Assembly (NCBI GenBank): GCA_009838915.1
Contig: VXQT01000036.1
Location: forward strand, 64,323 to 128,322
Reading direction: 5' to 3'
Length of the DNA stretch: 64,000 nt
From: Chloroflexota bacterium
GTDB lineage: Bacteria; Chloroflexota; Dehalococcoidia; Bin125
Under the pieces are notes generated by a model, which worked only from the letters and a program-made list of their open reading frames with translations, was not told the origin of the DNA and made no database searches. This document shows, one piece after another, positions 17,127-52,285 of the stretch. The translations under genes were made by a program, and so were the position numbers. The stretch's first letter is position 1. Each line of letters begins with the position of its first letter.

Positions 17127-17157
17127 CCCTCTCCCCCCGCCTGACGGCGGGGGGAGT
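17127..17157 (+). repeat. Partial palindromic repeat, copy 5 (large hairpin only)
   Basis: CCCTCT followed by a 9-bp C/G hairpin with loop TGAC (17133-17154). The small hairpin and the closing outer arm are missing. It lies between divergent rpsT and murJ, just upstream of the murJ start. Confidence 0.7.
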
Positions 17158-19432: not shown

Positions 19433-19625
19433 ATGGCAGACACGACGGCGCAACGCTGGATGCGCCTGATGGGCGGCCAGGGTCGGCCCACCGCCCGTCC
19501 GCCGAGCGACGCCGACGTCGCCGACAACGTGGCCCGCTATCCCGAACGCGCCGCACAGGCGCTGGTCGACCAGTCGCGCGCGCTAGGACAGGCCGCCTCG
19601 GCACGCCAGGCTCGGGGCTGGATTA
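19433..19625 (+). pseudogene. 5' part of small gene split by the transposon
   Basis: Starts with ATG after AAGAAGGACCAC and encodes 64 codons (MADTTAQRWMRLMGGQG... ending QARGWI) before the IS1595 element begins at 19626. Joining it to the 3' part at 22200 through the duplicated CTGGATTA restores one frame of 103 residues, reading ARGWITGQLNE across the junction. I recognise no family. The whole is alanine/arginine-rich and probably helical. As sequenced, the frame would run on into the element for another 150 codons. Confidence 0.8.
19618..19625. repeat. Target site duplication, left copy
   Basis: CTGGATTA, identical to 22193-22200. Eight-bp duplications are characteristic of the IS1595 family. 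Confidence 0.95.
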
Positions 19626-19648
19626 GGGGATTATATCGGATAGTGCCC
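19626..19648 (+). repeat. IS1595 left terminal inverted repeat
   Basis: Begins GGGGATTATATCGGATAG and ends TGCCC. It matches the reverse complement of 22170-22192 at 23 of 23 positions. Its inner 9 bp, ATAGTGCCC, recur twice in the internal palindrome at 21010-21042. Confidence 0.96.
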
Positions 19649-19654
19649 GCGCCA

Positions 19655-21024
19655 TCAGGTCAGGGCCAGCCTTTTGAGCCGCGCTACCAAGTACTCCTGC
19701 GGGCGATCCCCCTTCACGCGGTTACAGTGTCCGCAGAGCAGTTGGAGATTGTCGATGTGGTCCGAACCGCCGCGCGCCTGTGGGATCACGTGGTCAACCT
19801 CGAAGTGGCGGAATTCGAACGGCGACGCGCAGCCTGCACAACGGCCTTCCTGCTCGCCGAACAGCACGTGCTTGTTCTGCCGGTAGTTCCTCGGAGCCTC
19901 AATGTCGTCTCGCCTCGGGATGTCGTCTCGCGTGGTGACGAATCCGTGGTGAAACAGATCTCCGATGGTCTGCTGCAGGCGGACGTTGACCAGTTCGGCG
20001 GCCTTCGGCGAGATATCGATCCCGACCCAATCGCGGTCCAGCAACTCGGCCGAGACGCACGCCGTCGCGCAGCCACAGAATGGATCGAGCACTAGATCGC
20101 CGGGATCGCTGCTCGCTTCGATGATCCGATCCAATAGGGCGAGCGGTTTCTGTGTCGGGTAGCCGACGCGCTCTTTGGCCTGCGAGTTGATCGGCGAGAT
20201 ATCATCCCAGACCGATTGCGCAGGCCTGCCGTCCAGTTCGTCGAGATAGCGCTTGCGACGGATTCCGCCGTTGCGAGTGAAATGCAGATAGCCATCGTCG
20301 TCGAGTTGCCGCATCGTCTCCAGGGGCACGCGCCACAATGAGCGGCAGCCGCGATACTCGTATTCGTACCCCCCCCCGATAGGCCCTTCGCGGTCAGATT
20401 GTCGTCGGACCACTTGCGACCGTCCGCATCGGATCGCTTGAATCGAGCGAGATAGCGGGCATCGTAGGGCTGATAGGGCTGATTCCAGGTCCACGACTCA
20501 CCCGCTGTGTAGAACAGAATCTGATCATCTACACGCCCGTATCGGCTGGCGTCGCTGTGGGCGGTCGTGCGCTTCCAGGTAATCGAGTTCTGAAACTGCC
20601 TGCGTCCAAAGATCGCGTCCATAAGCGTCTTGAGATAGGCGCTGGCGAACGAGTCGCAGTGCAAGTAGATCGAACCAGTCGGTTTGAGCAGGCGTTTCAT
20701 CTCCAGCAGGCGCACGGCCATCATCGTCAGATAGGACTGCATGCCCTTCGAGTGCGTCCGGCCAGCGGTGTCCAGCAGGTAGGCGATGGCGGGCTGTTCG
20801 TCGGCGATCAGACCCATCCACGCCACGTCAAGATCGTCCAGTGTCCAGGTGTCTTTGAACGCGGCGCCGGCGGCCTGTGAGCCAACAGGCGCGGCATAAT
20901 CCCGATTCGAGTTGAACGGCGGATCGGCGTAGATCAGGTCCACGGTCTCCGAATTCATGCCGCGCATGATGTCCAGGTTGTCGCCCGTCCACAGCGTCCG
21001 ACTAGCGAAGTTGGGCACTATCAT
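19655..21024 (-). CDS. Beta-class DNA methyltransferase fused to HNH nuclease, frame-broken at a G9 tract
   Basis: Transposon passenger of about 456 residues once one frame shift is corrected. The N-terminal piece (21024 to about 20378) has TLWTGDNLDIM and the catalytic motif IV YADPPFNSNRDY, then LLEMKRLLKPTGSIYLHCD. The downstream piece has SVWDDISPI, YPTQKPLALLDRIIEAS and AdoMet motif I DLVLDPFCGCATACVSAE. The order IV-then-I marks the beta class (N6-adenine or N4-cytosine), like type III Mod enzymes. The C-terminus, after about residue 385, is an HNH domain: CAGCASPFEFRHFEVDHVIPQ, then NLQLLCGHCNRVKGD. The break lies in a run of nine G (20369-20377 on this strand); ten G, or seven, would join the frames. 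The ATG sits in the loop of the palindrome shared with the transposase promoter region. It may be phase-variable, decayed or a base-count error. Confidence 0.88.
20369..20377 (-). repeat. G9 homopolymer inside the methyltransferase frame
   Basis: Nine consecutive G on the coding strand, giving S-G-G-G-T in the upstream frame. With one more G the frame continues as S-G-G-G-Y-E-Y-E into the HNH-containing half. Such tracts are slippage-prone. Confidence 0.85.
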
Positions 21025-21042
21025 GGTAGAATAGTGCCCAAC
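21010..21042. promoter_or_regulatory. Perfect palindrome between divergent passenger and transposase genes
   Basis: GTTGGGCACTAT (21010-21021) and ATAGTGCCCAAC (21031-21042) are exact inverse complements around a 9-nt spacer that contains the methyltransferase ATG (21022-21024). The inner ATAGTGCCC of each arm equals the inner 9 bp of both transposon ends, so a protein that binds the ends, most simply the transposase, could also bind here and repress both genes. Operator role is inference. Confidence 0.7.
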
Positions 21043-21056
21043 GGGGAGAGAGACAG

Positions 21057-21995
21057 ATGACCACCGCACACGCTCCAGGACAGTCCTACCGAACCGGCAT
21101 CAGCCTGATCGAGCTGTTCCGCATGTTCCCCGACGACGCGACCGCCGAGGCGTTCTTCGCAGCGGAGCGTTGGCCTGATGGCCCTGAGTGCCCCTACTGC
21201 AAGTCGGACAACGTGCAGAGCGGAGCGAAGCACAAGACGATGCCGTTCCGCTGCCGCGCCTGCCGCAAGCGGTTCAGCGTCAAGACTGGGACGGTCATGG
21301 AAGCGTCGAACGTCGGCTGCCAGAAGTGGGCCCTGGCCGCGTTCCTGCTGACCACGTCGCTCAAGGGCGTATCGAGCATGAAGCTGCATCGGGACTTGCA
21401 GGTATCGCAGAAGACGGCCTGGTTCATGGCGCACCGCATTCGCCAGGCGTGGATCAACGACGGCGGCCTGTTCGATGGTCCGGTCGAGGCGGACGAGACG
21501 TTCATCGGCGGACTGGAAGGCAACAAGCACGCGGCGGACAAGCTGCACGCCGGTCGCGGTCCAGTGGGCAAGACGGCGGTTGTGGGGATCAAGGATCGCG
21601 AGACGGGCAAAGTCGCTGCGCAGGTCGTGTCGGGAACGGACGCGGCGAGCCTGGTTCCGTTCATCACCGACCGCACGGACGTTGAAGCGACGGTGTACAC
21701 GGACGAGCATGGCGCGTACCGGTCGCTCCCGCGTCGTCACGAGACGGTCGCGCACTCCGTCGGCGAGTACGTCAACGGGCAAGCGCACACGAACGGGATC
21801 GAGTCGTTCTGGTCGATGTTGAAGCGTGGCTATCACGGGACCTACCACCAGATGTCGCGCAAGCACCTGGATCGCTACGTGACAGAGTTCGCCGGTCGCC
21901 ACAATCAGCGACCGATGGACACCATCGATCAGCTCCGAGATGTCGTGCGCGGGATGGTCGGGAAGCGGTTGCGCTACTCGGACTTGATCGGCTGA
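21057..21995 (+). CDS. IS1595-family transposase
   Basis: A 312-residue transposase. Residues about 42-76 form the N-terminal zinc ribbon typical of the family (CPYCKSDN, then CRACRKRFSVKTGTVME). The DDE_Tnp_IS1595 (ISXO2-like) catalytic domain follows: VEADETFIGG with the first Asp, VYTDEHGAY with the second, and HTNGIESFWSMLKRGYHGTYHQMS, the Asn/Glu region of this DDNK/DDEK family, then HLDRYVTEFAGRHN. It catalyses cut-and-paste movement generating 8-bp duplications, matching the ends seen here. All motifs are intact. Ribosome-binding site GGGGAGAGAG lies 6 bp before the ATG. Confidence 0.96.
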   Translation: MTTAHAPGQSYRTGISLIELFRMFPDDATAEAFFAAERWPDGPECPYCKSDNVQSGAKHKTMPFRCRACRKRFSVKTGTVMEASNVGCQKWALAAFLLTTSLKGVSSMKLHRDLQVSQKTAWFMAHRIRQAWINDGGLFDGPVEADETFIGGLEGNKHAADKLHAGRGPVGKTAVVGIKDRETGKVAAQVVSGTDAASLVPFITDRTDVEATVYTDEHGAYRSLPRRHETVAHSVGEYVNGQAHTNGIESFWSMLKRGYHGTYHQMSRKHLDRYVTEFAGRHNQRPMDTIDQLRDVVRGMVGKRLRYSDLIG

Positions 21996-22084
21996 GGCTT
22001 CTTCTTCTCGCCTCGATTGCTCAGCATCGCCTTGATCACGGTCTTGGTCGGCGCGGGAATCCGCAGGTCCTTCGGGGTCGGCAT
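21974..22084 (-). CDS. Possible 36-residue basic peptide in the transposon
   Basis: An ATG-to-TAG frame on the minus strand (MPTPKDLRIPAPTKTVIKAM...) rich in Lys/Pro, overlapping the last 22 bp of the transposase antisense. It lies between the transposase and the right end, where IS1595 elements have little spare DNA. It may be a real passenger or chance. No family recognised. Confidence 0.3.
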   Translation of the reverse strand: MPTPKDLRIPAPTKTVIKAMLSNRGEKKKPQPIKSE

Positions 22085-22104
22085 CAGAGGTGGTCCGATC
22101 GCTG

Positions 22105-22123
22105 TGGCGGTGTAACACCGCCA
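22105..22123. terminator. Hairpin downstream of the transposase
   Basis: TGGCGGTG-TAA-CACCGCCA, a perfect 8-bp stem, 110 bp after the transposase stop and inside the right end of the element. There is no T-run after it, so it is a poor intrinsic terminator; it could protect ileS from read-through or be a structural element. Confidence 0.4.
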
Positions 22124-22169
22124 AGATAGCAGTGATGTCACGAATCGTTGACATCGGCGCGGGTCAGGT

Positions 22170-22192
22170 GGGCACTATCCGATATAATCCCC
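22170..22192 (-). repeat. IS1595 right terminal inverted repeat
   Basis: Reads GGGCACTATCCGATATAA then TCCCC on the + strand, the exact inverse of the left end. Confidence 0.96.
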
Positions 22193-22200
22193 CTGGATTA
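22193..22200. repeat. Target site duplication, right copy
   Basis: CTGGATTA, identical to 19618-19625. Confidence 0.95.
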
Positions 22201-22319
22201 CGGGGCAGCTCAACGAAGCTGCCGACTTGCTCGACCAAGCGACTCGCGACCGCATTGGCCAACTGGCCGACGCGCAGATCGCGCAACGATTCCCTGAGGA
22301 CTCATCCAACGATGGCTGA
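22200..22319 (+). pseudogene. 3' part of small gene split by the transposon
   Basis: In frame with the 5' part after removal of the element and one duplication copy. It encodes TGQLNEAADLLDQATRDR, then IGQLADAQIAQRFPEDS, and ends SNDG-TGA at 22319. The stop overlaps the ileS start by 8 bp, so the intact gene was probably translationally coupled to ileS. Function unknown. Confidence 0.8.
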
Positions 22320-25300
22320 CACCGCTACCGAAGCCGTAAGTTCCGAACCTGACTCTTCCACCTCTTCCGCACGCGATCTGACCTTCCGACCGGTCGGGAC
22401 AATGATGCCCCACCGCGAGCTCGAAGACGAAATTCGCCGGTTCTGGCGCGAGCGTGACATCTTCCGTCGAACGGTCGATGAGCGTCCCGCCGACGACGTC
22501 TATTCGTTCTACGAGGGTCCGCCCACGGCCAACGGCACACCCGGCGTGCACCACGTGCTCTCGCGCGTGTTCAAGGACCTCTTCCCGCGCTACCAGACGA
22601 TGCGCGGCAAGCGCGTCCCGCGCAAAGGCGGCTGGGACACGCACGGCCTGCCGGTCGAGATCGAGGTCGAAAAGACGCTCGGTCTGGACAGCAAGCCGGC
22701 GATCGAGGAGTACGGCATCGCCGAGTTCAACCGGCACTGCCGCGAGTCGGTGATGCAGTACGTCCAGCAATGGGAGGACATGACGGAGCGGGTCGCGTTC
22801 TGGATCGACATGTCCGACGCCTACCGTACTTACACGCCCGAGTACGTCGAATCCTGCTGGTGGATCTTCAAGACGCTGTGGGACGCCGGACTGATCTACG
22901 AGGCCCGCCGCACGACGCCGCACTGTCCGCGCTGCGAATCGTCGCTCTCCAGCCACGAACTCTCGCAGGGCATGCAGGACGGCGTCCGCGATCAGGCGGT
23001 GACCGTGCGCTTCCGCGCCCACAACGACTCGCTGCCCGAGAGTCTGCGGAGCGAGGGCACTACCGATTTCCTTGCCTGGACGACCACGCCGTGGACCCTG
23101 CCGGCCAACTCCGGCCTGGCATTGAACGCAAACGAGTCCTACGCGCTGGTGGAGATCGCCCCCGGTGAGCGGCTGATCCTGGCTCGAGAGCTCGTCGGCG
23201 CGGCGCTCGACGGAGTGGTCGATCAGGCGACTGTGATTGGAACGGTGCAGGGCGCGGAGCTGGTCGGTGTGACATACGACGGCCTGTACGAGCCCGATCA
23301 ATGGGGCGTACCGATGTACCGCTTCGACGGCGCTCGGTTGGTCGAGTGGACCGAGGCGGACGGTCGGTTGCCGGCGCGATCCGTCGCGGCGGGCGACTTC
23401 GTGGAAATGGAGAGCGGGACCGGCATCGTCCATATCGCTCCGGCGTTCGGCGAGGACGACTATCAACTCGGCCGCGAGGTCGGGCTACTGTTTCGCCAGC
23501 CGGTGGACCTCTCCGGGCGGATCGTCGGTAATGCCGACGATCCGGCCGCTCCGGCGTTCGTGGGCAAGTGGGTCAAGGACGCCGACCCGATAGTCATGGA
23601 CGACCTCGAGGCACGCGGCCTGTTGCTGCGCAAGGACATCTACGAGCACACCTATCCCTACTGCTGGCGCTGCGACACGCCGCTGCTCTACTACGCCAAA
23701 CCGAGCTGGTACATCGCCACATCGCAGGCCAAGGATTCGCTCACCAGCTCCAATGCGGAGCTGATCCACTGGCATCCTGAGCACACCGGCACGGGACGAT
23801 ACGGCGACTGGCTGGCCAACAATGTCGATTGGGCCGTGAGCCGCGAACGCTACTGGGGTACGCCGCTGCCGTTCTGGCGCTGCACCGAGTGCGGCGATGT
23901 CTCTTGCGTCGGTTCGTTCGACGAGCTGCGCGAGCGGGCCAGGGCGTTCAGCGGCGTTGAGCCGGACCTCTCTGATCCGCACCGCCCGTACGTCGACGAG
24001 ATTGAGATCGGCTGCGACAAGTGCCCTGGCGCTGCCCGTCGATGTCCGGAAGTCGCCGACGCCTGGTTCGACTCCGGCGCCATGCCTTACGCACAGTGGC
24101 ATTACCCGTTCGAGAACCAGGATCGCTTCGACGAGCGGTTCCCCGCCGACTTCATCTGCGAAGCCGTCGACCAGACTCGCGGCTGGTTCTACTCACTGCA
24201 CGCCGAGGCCGCAATGCTGCACCGCGCCGAGGCGGTGCCCGAACCGATCTCGTTCCGCAACGTGATCTCGTTGGGCCACATCCTCGATGAGGCGGGCGAG
24301 AAGATGTCCAAGTCGAAGGGCAACGTCGTCGATCCGTGGGAGGTGCTCGACCAGAGCGGCGCCGACGCCTTGCGCTGGTACTGCTACGTCGCTTCACCGG
24401 CAGGCAACCCTCGGCGGTTTTCGCCTCGTCTCGTGAGCGAGGCGCAACGCCGATTCCTGCACACGCTGTGGAACACGTACTCGTTCTTCATCACTTACGC
24501 CAACATCGACGGCTGGCGTCCGACCGAGCGGACGGGCGCGCTGACGGTCGAACTCGACCGCTGGATCCTGAGCGAACTGCACAGCCTGATTGGCCGCGTC
24601 ACCGAGGCGTTGGACGACTACGACCCGACGACGGCGGCGCGCGAGATCGACGGATTCGTCGACTCGCTCTCCAACTGGTATGTGCGGCGCAGCCGGCGGC
24701 GCTTCTGGTCGTCGGCGCGCGGCGGGGCGGCCGCCGACCTCGGAGCCAAGCAGAGCGCCTACCTGACGCTCTACGAAGTGCTGACCACGCTGGCGCGGCT
24801 GCTCGCGCCAATGACGCCGTACCTGTCCGAGGAGATGTGGCGCAATCTCGTCGCCGAGTTGGATGCGAATGCGCCGGAGTCCGTACACCTGGCTCGCTGG
24901 CCCGAGGTCGACGCGTCGCTGATCGACGAGCCGCTGAACCAGGACATGGCGCTGGTACAGCGTGTCGCGTCGCTGGGCCGTGCGGCGCGCAGCGCGGCAG
25001 GACTCAAGGTTCGTCAGCCGCTGGCGGCGGTCTCGGTCGCCGTCCGCAGCGCTCGCGACGCCGATGCCGTGCAGCGACTTCGCAACACGATCGCCGAGGA
25101 GTTGAACGTGAAGTCGGTGACGCTCGCCGACGCGGCGTCCGATTCCCGGCGCTACACGATCAAGCCGAATTTGCGGACGCTGGGCCCGCGAATCGGTCCG
25201 AAGCTGCCGGCCCTGCGAGCCGCGCTGAGCGATCTGCCGCCGGAGCTGACCTCGCACATCGCACAAGCCGCCGAGTCGGGTCAGACTGTCGAGGTCGAAG

Positions 25301-32219: not shown

Positions 32220-32264
32220 CCCCTCTGCCTACGGCATCTCCCCCCGCCGAGCGGGGGGAGAGGA
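32220..32264 (-). repeat. Dispersed three-way-junction palindrome, copy 8
   Basis: CCCCTCT, GCC-TAC-GGC (32227-32235), ATCT, then a large hairpin of 8-bp arms, and AGAGGAC as an imperfect closing arm. It lies just beyond the 3' end of the solute-binding protein gene. Confidence 0.83.
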
Positions 32265-34310: not shown

Positions 34311-34356
34311 CCCCTCTGCCTTCGGCATCTCCCCCCGCCTGCGCGGGGGGAGAAGG
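34311..34356 (-). repeat. Dispersed three-way-junction palindrome, copy 9
   Basis: CCCCTCT (34311-34317), GCC-TTC-GGC, ATCT, large hairpin of 8-bp arms with loop CTGC (34331-34350), then AGAAGG. It lies between the solute-binding protein and LLM genes. Confidence 0.84.
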
Positions 34357-52238: not shown

Positions 52239-52285
52239 CCCCTCTGCCTTCGGCATCTCCCCCCGCTCGCGCGGGGGGAGAGGGA
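52239..52285 (-). repeat. Dispersed three-way-junction palindrome, copy 11
   Basis: CCCCTCT (52239-52245), GCC-TTC-GGC, ATCT, large hairpin with loop TCGC (52259-52278) and AGAGGGAG. It fills the gap between the exchanger start and the crotonase stop. Confidence 0.85.

Follow-up and report, generated by a model that had tools for sequence, protein, structure and literature searches.

The palindrome at positions 21010-21042 of the window, the whole stretch of 64,000 nucleotides analysed here, is with high probability an operator for the transposase of the mobile element in which it lies. Specifically, the data point to a transposase that reads the inner parts of the element's ends as well as copies of them on its own promoter, and that would thereby limit its own synthesis. 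In the proposed mechanism, the zinc ribbon of the transposase would read the inner part (approximately bases 16-24) of each terminal repeat, and one or two extra recognition halves, without the outer end, would lie on the core promoter of the transposase gene, tnp. As its amount rises, the transposase would occupy its own promoter and restrain its own synthesis, so that transposase amount, and through it copy number, would feed back on tnp expression. In the window element, the perfect palindrome would consist of two half-sites, one on the -10 box and the other upstream of it in the spacer; a passenger methyltransferase starts inside the palindrome, and occupancy of the operator should affect this gene too.

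A palindrome between two divergent genes

The palindrome belongs to a complete IS1595-family transposon (Table 1), whose two 23-bp ends both read GGGGATTATATCGGATAGTGCCC, inverted and with no mismatch. The transposase is encoded on the plus strand, and a DNA methyltransferase with a C-terminal HNH domain diverges from it. The tnp gene is a single continuous frame of 312 codons, and its product scores 127.5 bits against PF12762 (cut-off 27) and 34.9 bits against PF12760 (cut-off 25.4). Assignment to the IS1595 family follows from the DDE_Tnp_IS1595 domain with its N-terminal zinc ribbon, from the catalytic residues D146, D216 and E249, which are present in 67 of 67 aligned relatives, and from the 8-bp target-site duplication with inverted ends starting GG(G/N). 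An AlphaFold model of the transposase has a mean pLDDT of 85.4; a comparison with solved structures found no close relative, giving only a weak match to a zinc-finger protein and generic DDE/integrase folds, and none of the PADLOC models matched tnp.

Table 1 Features in the window, numbered from its first nucleotide
Feature	Position	Strand	Basis
Host hairpin repeat copies	25-50, 2054-2079, 2151-2181, 17131-17156, 32237-32261, 34328-34353, 52256-52281		sequence
Left target-site duplication CTGGATTA	19618..19625	.	sequence
IS1595-family element, complete, 2567 bp	19626..22192	.	perfect 23-bp inverted ends, 8-bp target-site duplication
Left terminal repeat; inner recognition part ATAGTGCCC at 19640-19648	19626..19648	+	sequence match
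Methyltransferase, 3' part and C-terminal HNH domain, in another frame	19655..20494	-	PF01555 5.9e-22, PF01844 3.6e-15
N6/N4 DNA methyltransferase passenger, 5' part	20092..21024	-	PF01555 3.2e-18
G9 tract (C9 on plus strand) where the methyltransferase frame changes	20369..20377	-	sequence
Left palindrome arm: putative inverted half-site upstream of tnp -10; also codes for first methyltransferase residues	21010..21021	-	sequence comparison
Methyltransferase ATG within palindrome spacer	21022..21024	-	sequence
Candidate tnp -10, TAGAAT (extended: TGG-TAGAAT)	21027..21032	+	inferred from sequence
Right palindrome arm: putative direct half-site overlapping tnp -10	21031..21042	+	sequence comparison
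tnp, IS1595-type transposase: zinc ribbon, HTH, DDE	21057..21995	+	PF12762 5.8e-37, PF12760 1.5e-08
Zinc-ribbon codons 45-72; predicted base-reading H59 (21231-21233), R70 (21264-21266), R72 (21270-21272)	21189..21272	+	covariation
Right terminal repeat; inner recognition part at 22170-22178	22170..22192	-	sequence match
Right target-site duplication CTGGATTA	22193..22200	.	sequence

The end sequence occurs in the 2.87-Mb genome only at the element's own two ends; a genome search with it found no further copies for comparison, and the transposon is single-copy in its genome. Among viral contigs there was no exact match to the end sequence and one truncated relative (L117), and among plasmids there were only relatives below 60% identity. 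The insertion lies within a host open frame starting at 19433, and by eye both sides (19433-19625 and 22201-22320, one frame after the right duplication) are plausible coding sequence; the transposon thus appears to interrupt a host gene. The surrounding host DNA also carries an interspersed hairpin repeat with small variations, CTCCCCCCGC-loop-GCGGGGGGAG, REP-like or terminator-like in appearance, in seven copies across the window.

The first-pass annotation described a perfect palindrome with 12-bp arms between the divergent genes, and this description is exact: the site reads GTTGGGCACTAT-CATGGTAGA-ATAGTGCCCAAC, with a spacer of 9 nt. Its further claims, that each arm contains a sequence identical to the inner part of both terminal repeats and that the methyltransferase ATG lies in the spacer, were confirmed as well, ATAGTGCCC being present in both arms and in the inner part of both ends, and the ATG reading from 21024 to 21022 on the minus strand. 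Across the 64 kb, ATAGTGCCC has exactly four exact matches, namely the two arms and the two terminal repeats (100 shuffles: mean 0.13, maximum 1), and there are three palindromes with arms of at least 12 and a spacer of at most 20, compared with a mean of 0.2 in 20 shuffles. A chance palindrome was ruled out, since the counts of both the 9-mer and the long-arm palindromes exceed those in shuffles.

Host repressors typically use palindromic operators placed between divergent genes, and a host regulator might therefore own the site. This explanation is scarcely credible, as the combination GGGCACTAT-N5-12-ATAGTGCCC is found in one place only in the 2.87-Mb genome, on which ground a host regulon site was rejected, and as the site, in distant hosts, varies in sequence with the ends and transposase of the element that carries it. 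A second alternative would place the function in RNA, with the palindrome folding in the methyltransferase messenger and hiding or presenting its start codon. The minus-strand RNA does form a fold of -20.7 kcal/mol (z -6.65), which places the AUG in its loop, but the corresponding fold in the closest relative, L003, is weak (-11.1, z -1.95), most relatives with their single half-site have no hairpin, and Rfam has no match in 19500-22400. RNA regulation would, moreover, leave the covariation with ends and zinc-ribbon residues unexplained, and we regard it as very improbable.

The left arm corresponds in place and orientation to the inverted half-sites of L118, L026, L020, L039 and L007, and the right arm is of the direct type, kept in L003, L004 and L027. 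Because the left arm matches the spacer type and the right arm the direct type, the perfect palindrome reads as the sum of two known half-site positions. In L003, whose transposase is 99% identical, the left arm has two mismatches, next to an intact right arm. On the coding strand, half of the left arm (CCCAAC) supplies the Pro-Asn codons of a P-N-F/W start of the methyltransferase; in our own reading, 10 of 19 methyltransferase copies with a recovered 5' part begin in this way. A consensus promoter scan of 19500-22300 found no -35/-10 pair, and a good -35 box for this tnp was not found.

Internal copies follow the ends of each element

The first-pass annotation named, as what would speak against it, related elements whose ends change but whose palindrome stays constant. 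Across 73 relatives and 25 held-out elements, the site follows the ends. The expectation that the palindrome itself is conserved together with the end sequence holds in part: the half-site tracks each element's own ends, but perfect palindromy is not kept among relatives (L003 being the closest example), most of which have a single half-site.

These relatives derive from a scan of public genomes, which gave 166 transposase relatives (the best 80 kept, mostly from metagenome-assembled genomes), and from a search within the phylum, in which 56 of 400 genomes had matches, with longer stretches taken around 40 of those places. Among 155 loci with a transposase, 84 had both inverted ends and a target-site duplication with at most one mismatch, as the criteria require, and 73 of these were distinct, L083 (the window itself) being left out and 11 duplicate loci removed. 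The upstream comparison covers 71 elements, as L106 and L153 have no usable region upstream of tnp, and the domain and residue analyses cover 67 of these 71, with L149, L110, L111 and L157 (37-42% identical) excluded. The held-out set was drawn from 40 new loci in genomes around Alphaproteobacteria and Acidobacteriota-type centres and others; ends were not obtained for 13 of 41 tnp copies, and of the other 28, 3 carried a tnp already in the first set, leaving 25 new complete elements, including the mutually close pair L187 and L188. Across elements, the outer part of the end is alike (GGG-A-TTATA), and the inner part varies (AGTGCCC, AGTAACC, GTTTACCC, GAGTACCC, AGTCACA, TTGACA and others).

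Each element's inner motif was defined from its right end alone, and the sequence upstream of tnp, minus the left end, was scanned for it in either orientation. An element's own motif scored a mean of 6.55 there, compared with 5.0 for the motifs of other elements (71 elements; 0 of 20,000 permutations), and the result was again 0 of 20,000 when one element per distinct end core was kept (n=29). In elements whose left end lacks TTGAC, a class defined here by positions 11-27 of the left end, the own motif scored 7.58 and other motifs 5.26 (n=43; 0 of 20,000 permutations). A copy, that is, a score of at least 7, is present in 28 of these 43, the false half-site rate being set by this threshold, which foreign motifs differing at 4 or more of 12 positions reach in 100 of 1608 pairings. 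Among the held-out elements with TTGAC-free left ends (n=19), 0 of 20,000 permutations reached the observed value and 10 have a copy, so that no recognisable match was found in 15 of 43 and 9 of 19 elements, respectively. In an earlier, smaller set, where the TTGAC class was defined by positions 11-26 of either end, 33 elements were each compared with the nearest relative that has a different motif: the own motif was better in 25 cases, worse in 2 and tied in 6.

Elements whose left end does carry TTGAC have a copy in only 3 of 28 cases, and 81 of 20,000 permutations reach their observed mean. In these elements, the end itself could be the promoter of tnp, because TTGAC is located where its -35 box could be. 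A separate observation concerns L036, which has three copies of its end motif upstream of tnp, in both orientations.

The copy repeats the recognition half of the end and lies on the promoter

It is conceivable that the internal copies are relics or spare ends, left by nested insertion or one-ended events, that serve mobility and not regulation. They do share their motif with the end, and direct copies are oriented like the left end. However, in the 38 elements with a copy (training and held-out; best copy inverted in 26, direct in 12), end positions 17-23 match in 87-100%, and end positions 1-12 are at background (own 0.316, cross 0.298); only copies passing the score threshold were counted, which inflates the inner positions and leaves the outer ones unaffected. 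Because the outer part of the end is absent, the copy, which repeats only the recognition half (approximately positions 16-24), resembles an operator more than a spare end. In addition, where the left end (IRL) is more than 135 bp upstream of tnp with other DNA between them, as when passengers separate the two, the copy is kept in 14 of 18 elements (0 of 20,000 permutations), and the copy is therefore more than an inward extension of the end. Spare ends also fit poorly with the position of the copies on promoter cores, and on balance there is very little to recommend this explanation.

Specifically, 28 of these 38 elements have a callable -35/-10 pair, and in every one of them the copy overlaps the core promoter, where random placement would give 17.7. 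It lies in the -35/-10 spacer in 8, on the -10 box in 17 and just after it in 3. The spacer type, with the copy between TTGACA and the -10 box, is exemplified by L118, which has exactly the same ends as the window element, with a transposase only 64% identical.

A protein bound to the -35/-10 core most likely represses tnp, the sign of the effect being judged from position. Activation of tnp by the bound transposase, or a main role in holding the ends together, would also be compatible with a site on a promoter, as such sites can do either and the sign is not readable from sequence. Both are nevertheless unlikely in our assessment, given that the three locations are those at which binding usually blocks polymerase and that the precedent of IS1, as given in the available part of its account, is repression (PMC12428005).

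Zinc-ribbon residues predict the bases of ends and copies

The reader of these sites can be narrowed down from the covariation between the transposase and its ends. In a partial Mantel comparison of 67 elements with the other domains removed, the inner end motif correlates with the zinc ribbon at r=0.51 (0 of 1000 permutations), compared with 0.07 for the HTH part (27 of 1000) and -0.10 for the catalytic domain (990 of 1000). The strongest single links all involve zinc-ribbon positions, namely residue 59 for base 18, residue 72 for base 21 and residue 70 for base 23. Residue 72 pairs with base 21 as R-C in 19 of 19, F-A in 10 of 10, Y-G in 25 of 26 and H-G in 4 of 4 elements, and H59 goes with G18 in 38 of 39. 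On the catalytic-domain tree, 23 of 24 changes of base 21 fall on branches with a change of residue 72, and base 18, scored as G or not, coincides in the same way with its residue in 15 of 16 changes; permutations and branch counts only partly remove relatedness, the main guard being the comparison of all residue columns on the same tree. Base 18 is best matched by residue 59, bases 20 and 21 by residue 72 and base 23 by residue 70, each ranking first among all columns tested.

With rules fixed beforehand, the held-out elements were predicted correctly for base 21 in 21 of 23 (2 of the 25 have a residue at position 72 that lacks a rule and were excluded), for base 18 in 24 of 25, and for base 23 in 15 of 16, counting only elements with R70. 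The operator copies fit the same code, at base 21 in 37 of 38 and at base 18 in 37 of 38. The six elements excluded above, counted afterwards by eye, agree at base 21 in five and at base 18 in five, L111 failing both. A second link, between residues 117 and 119 in the HTH region and base 11 in the outer end (r 0.63 and 0.52), points tentatively to the HTH as the reader of that outer part.

The transposase is very probably, via its zinc ribbon, the reader of both ends and operator, because no other protein is known to be shared by all elements and because its zinc ribbon varies in step with the motif. As such, the proposal that a protein recognising the ends acts on tnp appears well supported, with a site that follows the ends, covers the core of the tnp promoter and tracks the zinc ribbon.

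The methyltransferase passenger

The first-pass annotation went on to propose that such a protein could repress both genes and so couple copy number, transposition and methyltransferase expression; both steps are inferences. In the window element, the methyltransferase is split across two frames, the change falling within the stretch that holds the G9 tract; PADLOC models give generic type II/III methyltransferase matches. Runs of G or C of at least 8 within the coding frame are found in 11 of 20 passenger methyltransferase genes (tract lengths 8-13; besides the window element, in L003, L007, L016, L018, L047, L065, L066, L067, L074 and L118), at a density of 0.461 per kb, compared with 0.027 in flanks and 0 in tnp. 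In tblastn pieces, the frame differs between the halves in the window element, L003, L007, L016, L047, L066, L074 and L118, all with tracts, and the tracts and frame changes together look like phase variation.

Three gene layouts could link the methyltransferase to the ends. In 9 of the 20 elements it lies directly behind tnp on the same strand (gap -4 to 49 nt), in 4 (L065, L067, L070, L074) its ATG is 53-59 nt from a right end that contains TTGAC or TAGAC, and in 2 it is divergent; the ATG lies in the palindrome spacer in the window element and in L003. The 9, 4 and 2 elements add up to 15 of 20 methyltransferases that could be served by an end-linked promoter, and 5 follow none of the layouts (L046, L062, L026, L120 and L072, the last with only HNH similarity). 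A coupling of methyltransferase expression to the end-recognising protein is plausible, because the gene starts in the palindrome and 15 of 20 could use an end-linked promoter. Against it stand the degraded left arm in L003, the partly coding nature of the left arm and the frame break at G9 in the methyltransferase here.

Two observations concern the passengers themselves. In L065, L067, L070 and L074, a possible -10 box is found just before the methyltransferase ATG; these elements may have tnp and cargo promoters built into their two ends, with leaderless messengers. Between the window element and L003, the methyltransferase side (19626-21020) is 53-84% identical, the transposase and right part are 94-100% identical, and the switch occurs inside the palindrome, which suggests that passengers are swapped as modules at the operator.

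Implications and relation to known systems

Taken together, the results can be joined into one reading, which in our judgement stands evenly poised between right and wrong. It would comprise an amino-acid-to-base code of the zinc ribbon for the ends (residue 72 to base 21: R-C, F-A, Y-G, H-G; H59 to G18; residue 70 to base 23), the same code fixing the tnp operator, and methyltransferases wired into the circuit in three layouts, as an operon behind tnp, by a promoter inside the right end or by a shared divergent operator. If this is true, end specificity can change only when ends, operator and the three residues move together, because the code also fixes the operator. How a transposase and its ends change specificity jointly without losing mobility is an open question, and in these elements the answer would be readable from sequence, with residue 72 and base 21, and residue 59 and base 18, as handles for single substitutions. 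The transposon would thereby keep a detached copy of the recognition half of its end as a feedback operator, and the layouts suggest shared control of the cargo genes. Searches of the open-access literature listed no report of such a residue-to-base code or operator for IS1595, and, as far as the literature searched shows, the detached operator following the ends and the zinc-ribbon code are new.

Phase-variable DNA methyltransferases, with G/C tracts in the gene, are a known class. The passengers described here resemble them in their G/C tracts of 8-13 and nearby frame changes, and differ in that the gene is carried by a transposon and that its switching is predicted.

ISApl4, of the IS1016 subgroup of the IS1595 family, is like these elements in its IS1595-type DDE transposase, its ends starting GGGG and its 8-bp target-site duplication (PMC12561309). 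It measures 712 bp with 14-bp ends, whereas the elements described here are approximately 1.9-5.7 kb long and have passengers and longer ends with a variable recognition part; the available part of the ISApl4/IS1595 account describes neither an operator nor an end-reading code (PMC12561309).

The closest regulatory parallel may be IS1. According to the part of its account that was available, the InsA protein, which shares the DNA-binding domain of the transposase, represses a promoter that shares part of its sequence with the left end, and at both ends it acts as a competitor (PMC12428005). The proposed likeness would consist in an end-recognising, transposase-type DNA-binding domain acting on the tnp promoter. 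IS1 makes a separate repressor by default and its transposase by frameshift (PMC12428005), whereas the continuous tnp frame here differs from such a short repressor with a frameshifted transposase. Likewise, the IS1 promoter partly overlaps the end (PMC12428005), whereas here the motif appears duplicated inward onto the promoter, even with the end more than 1 kb away. As such, the window element is best read, by analogy, as an IS1595-family element with IS1-like regulatory logic.
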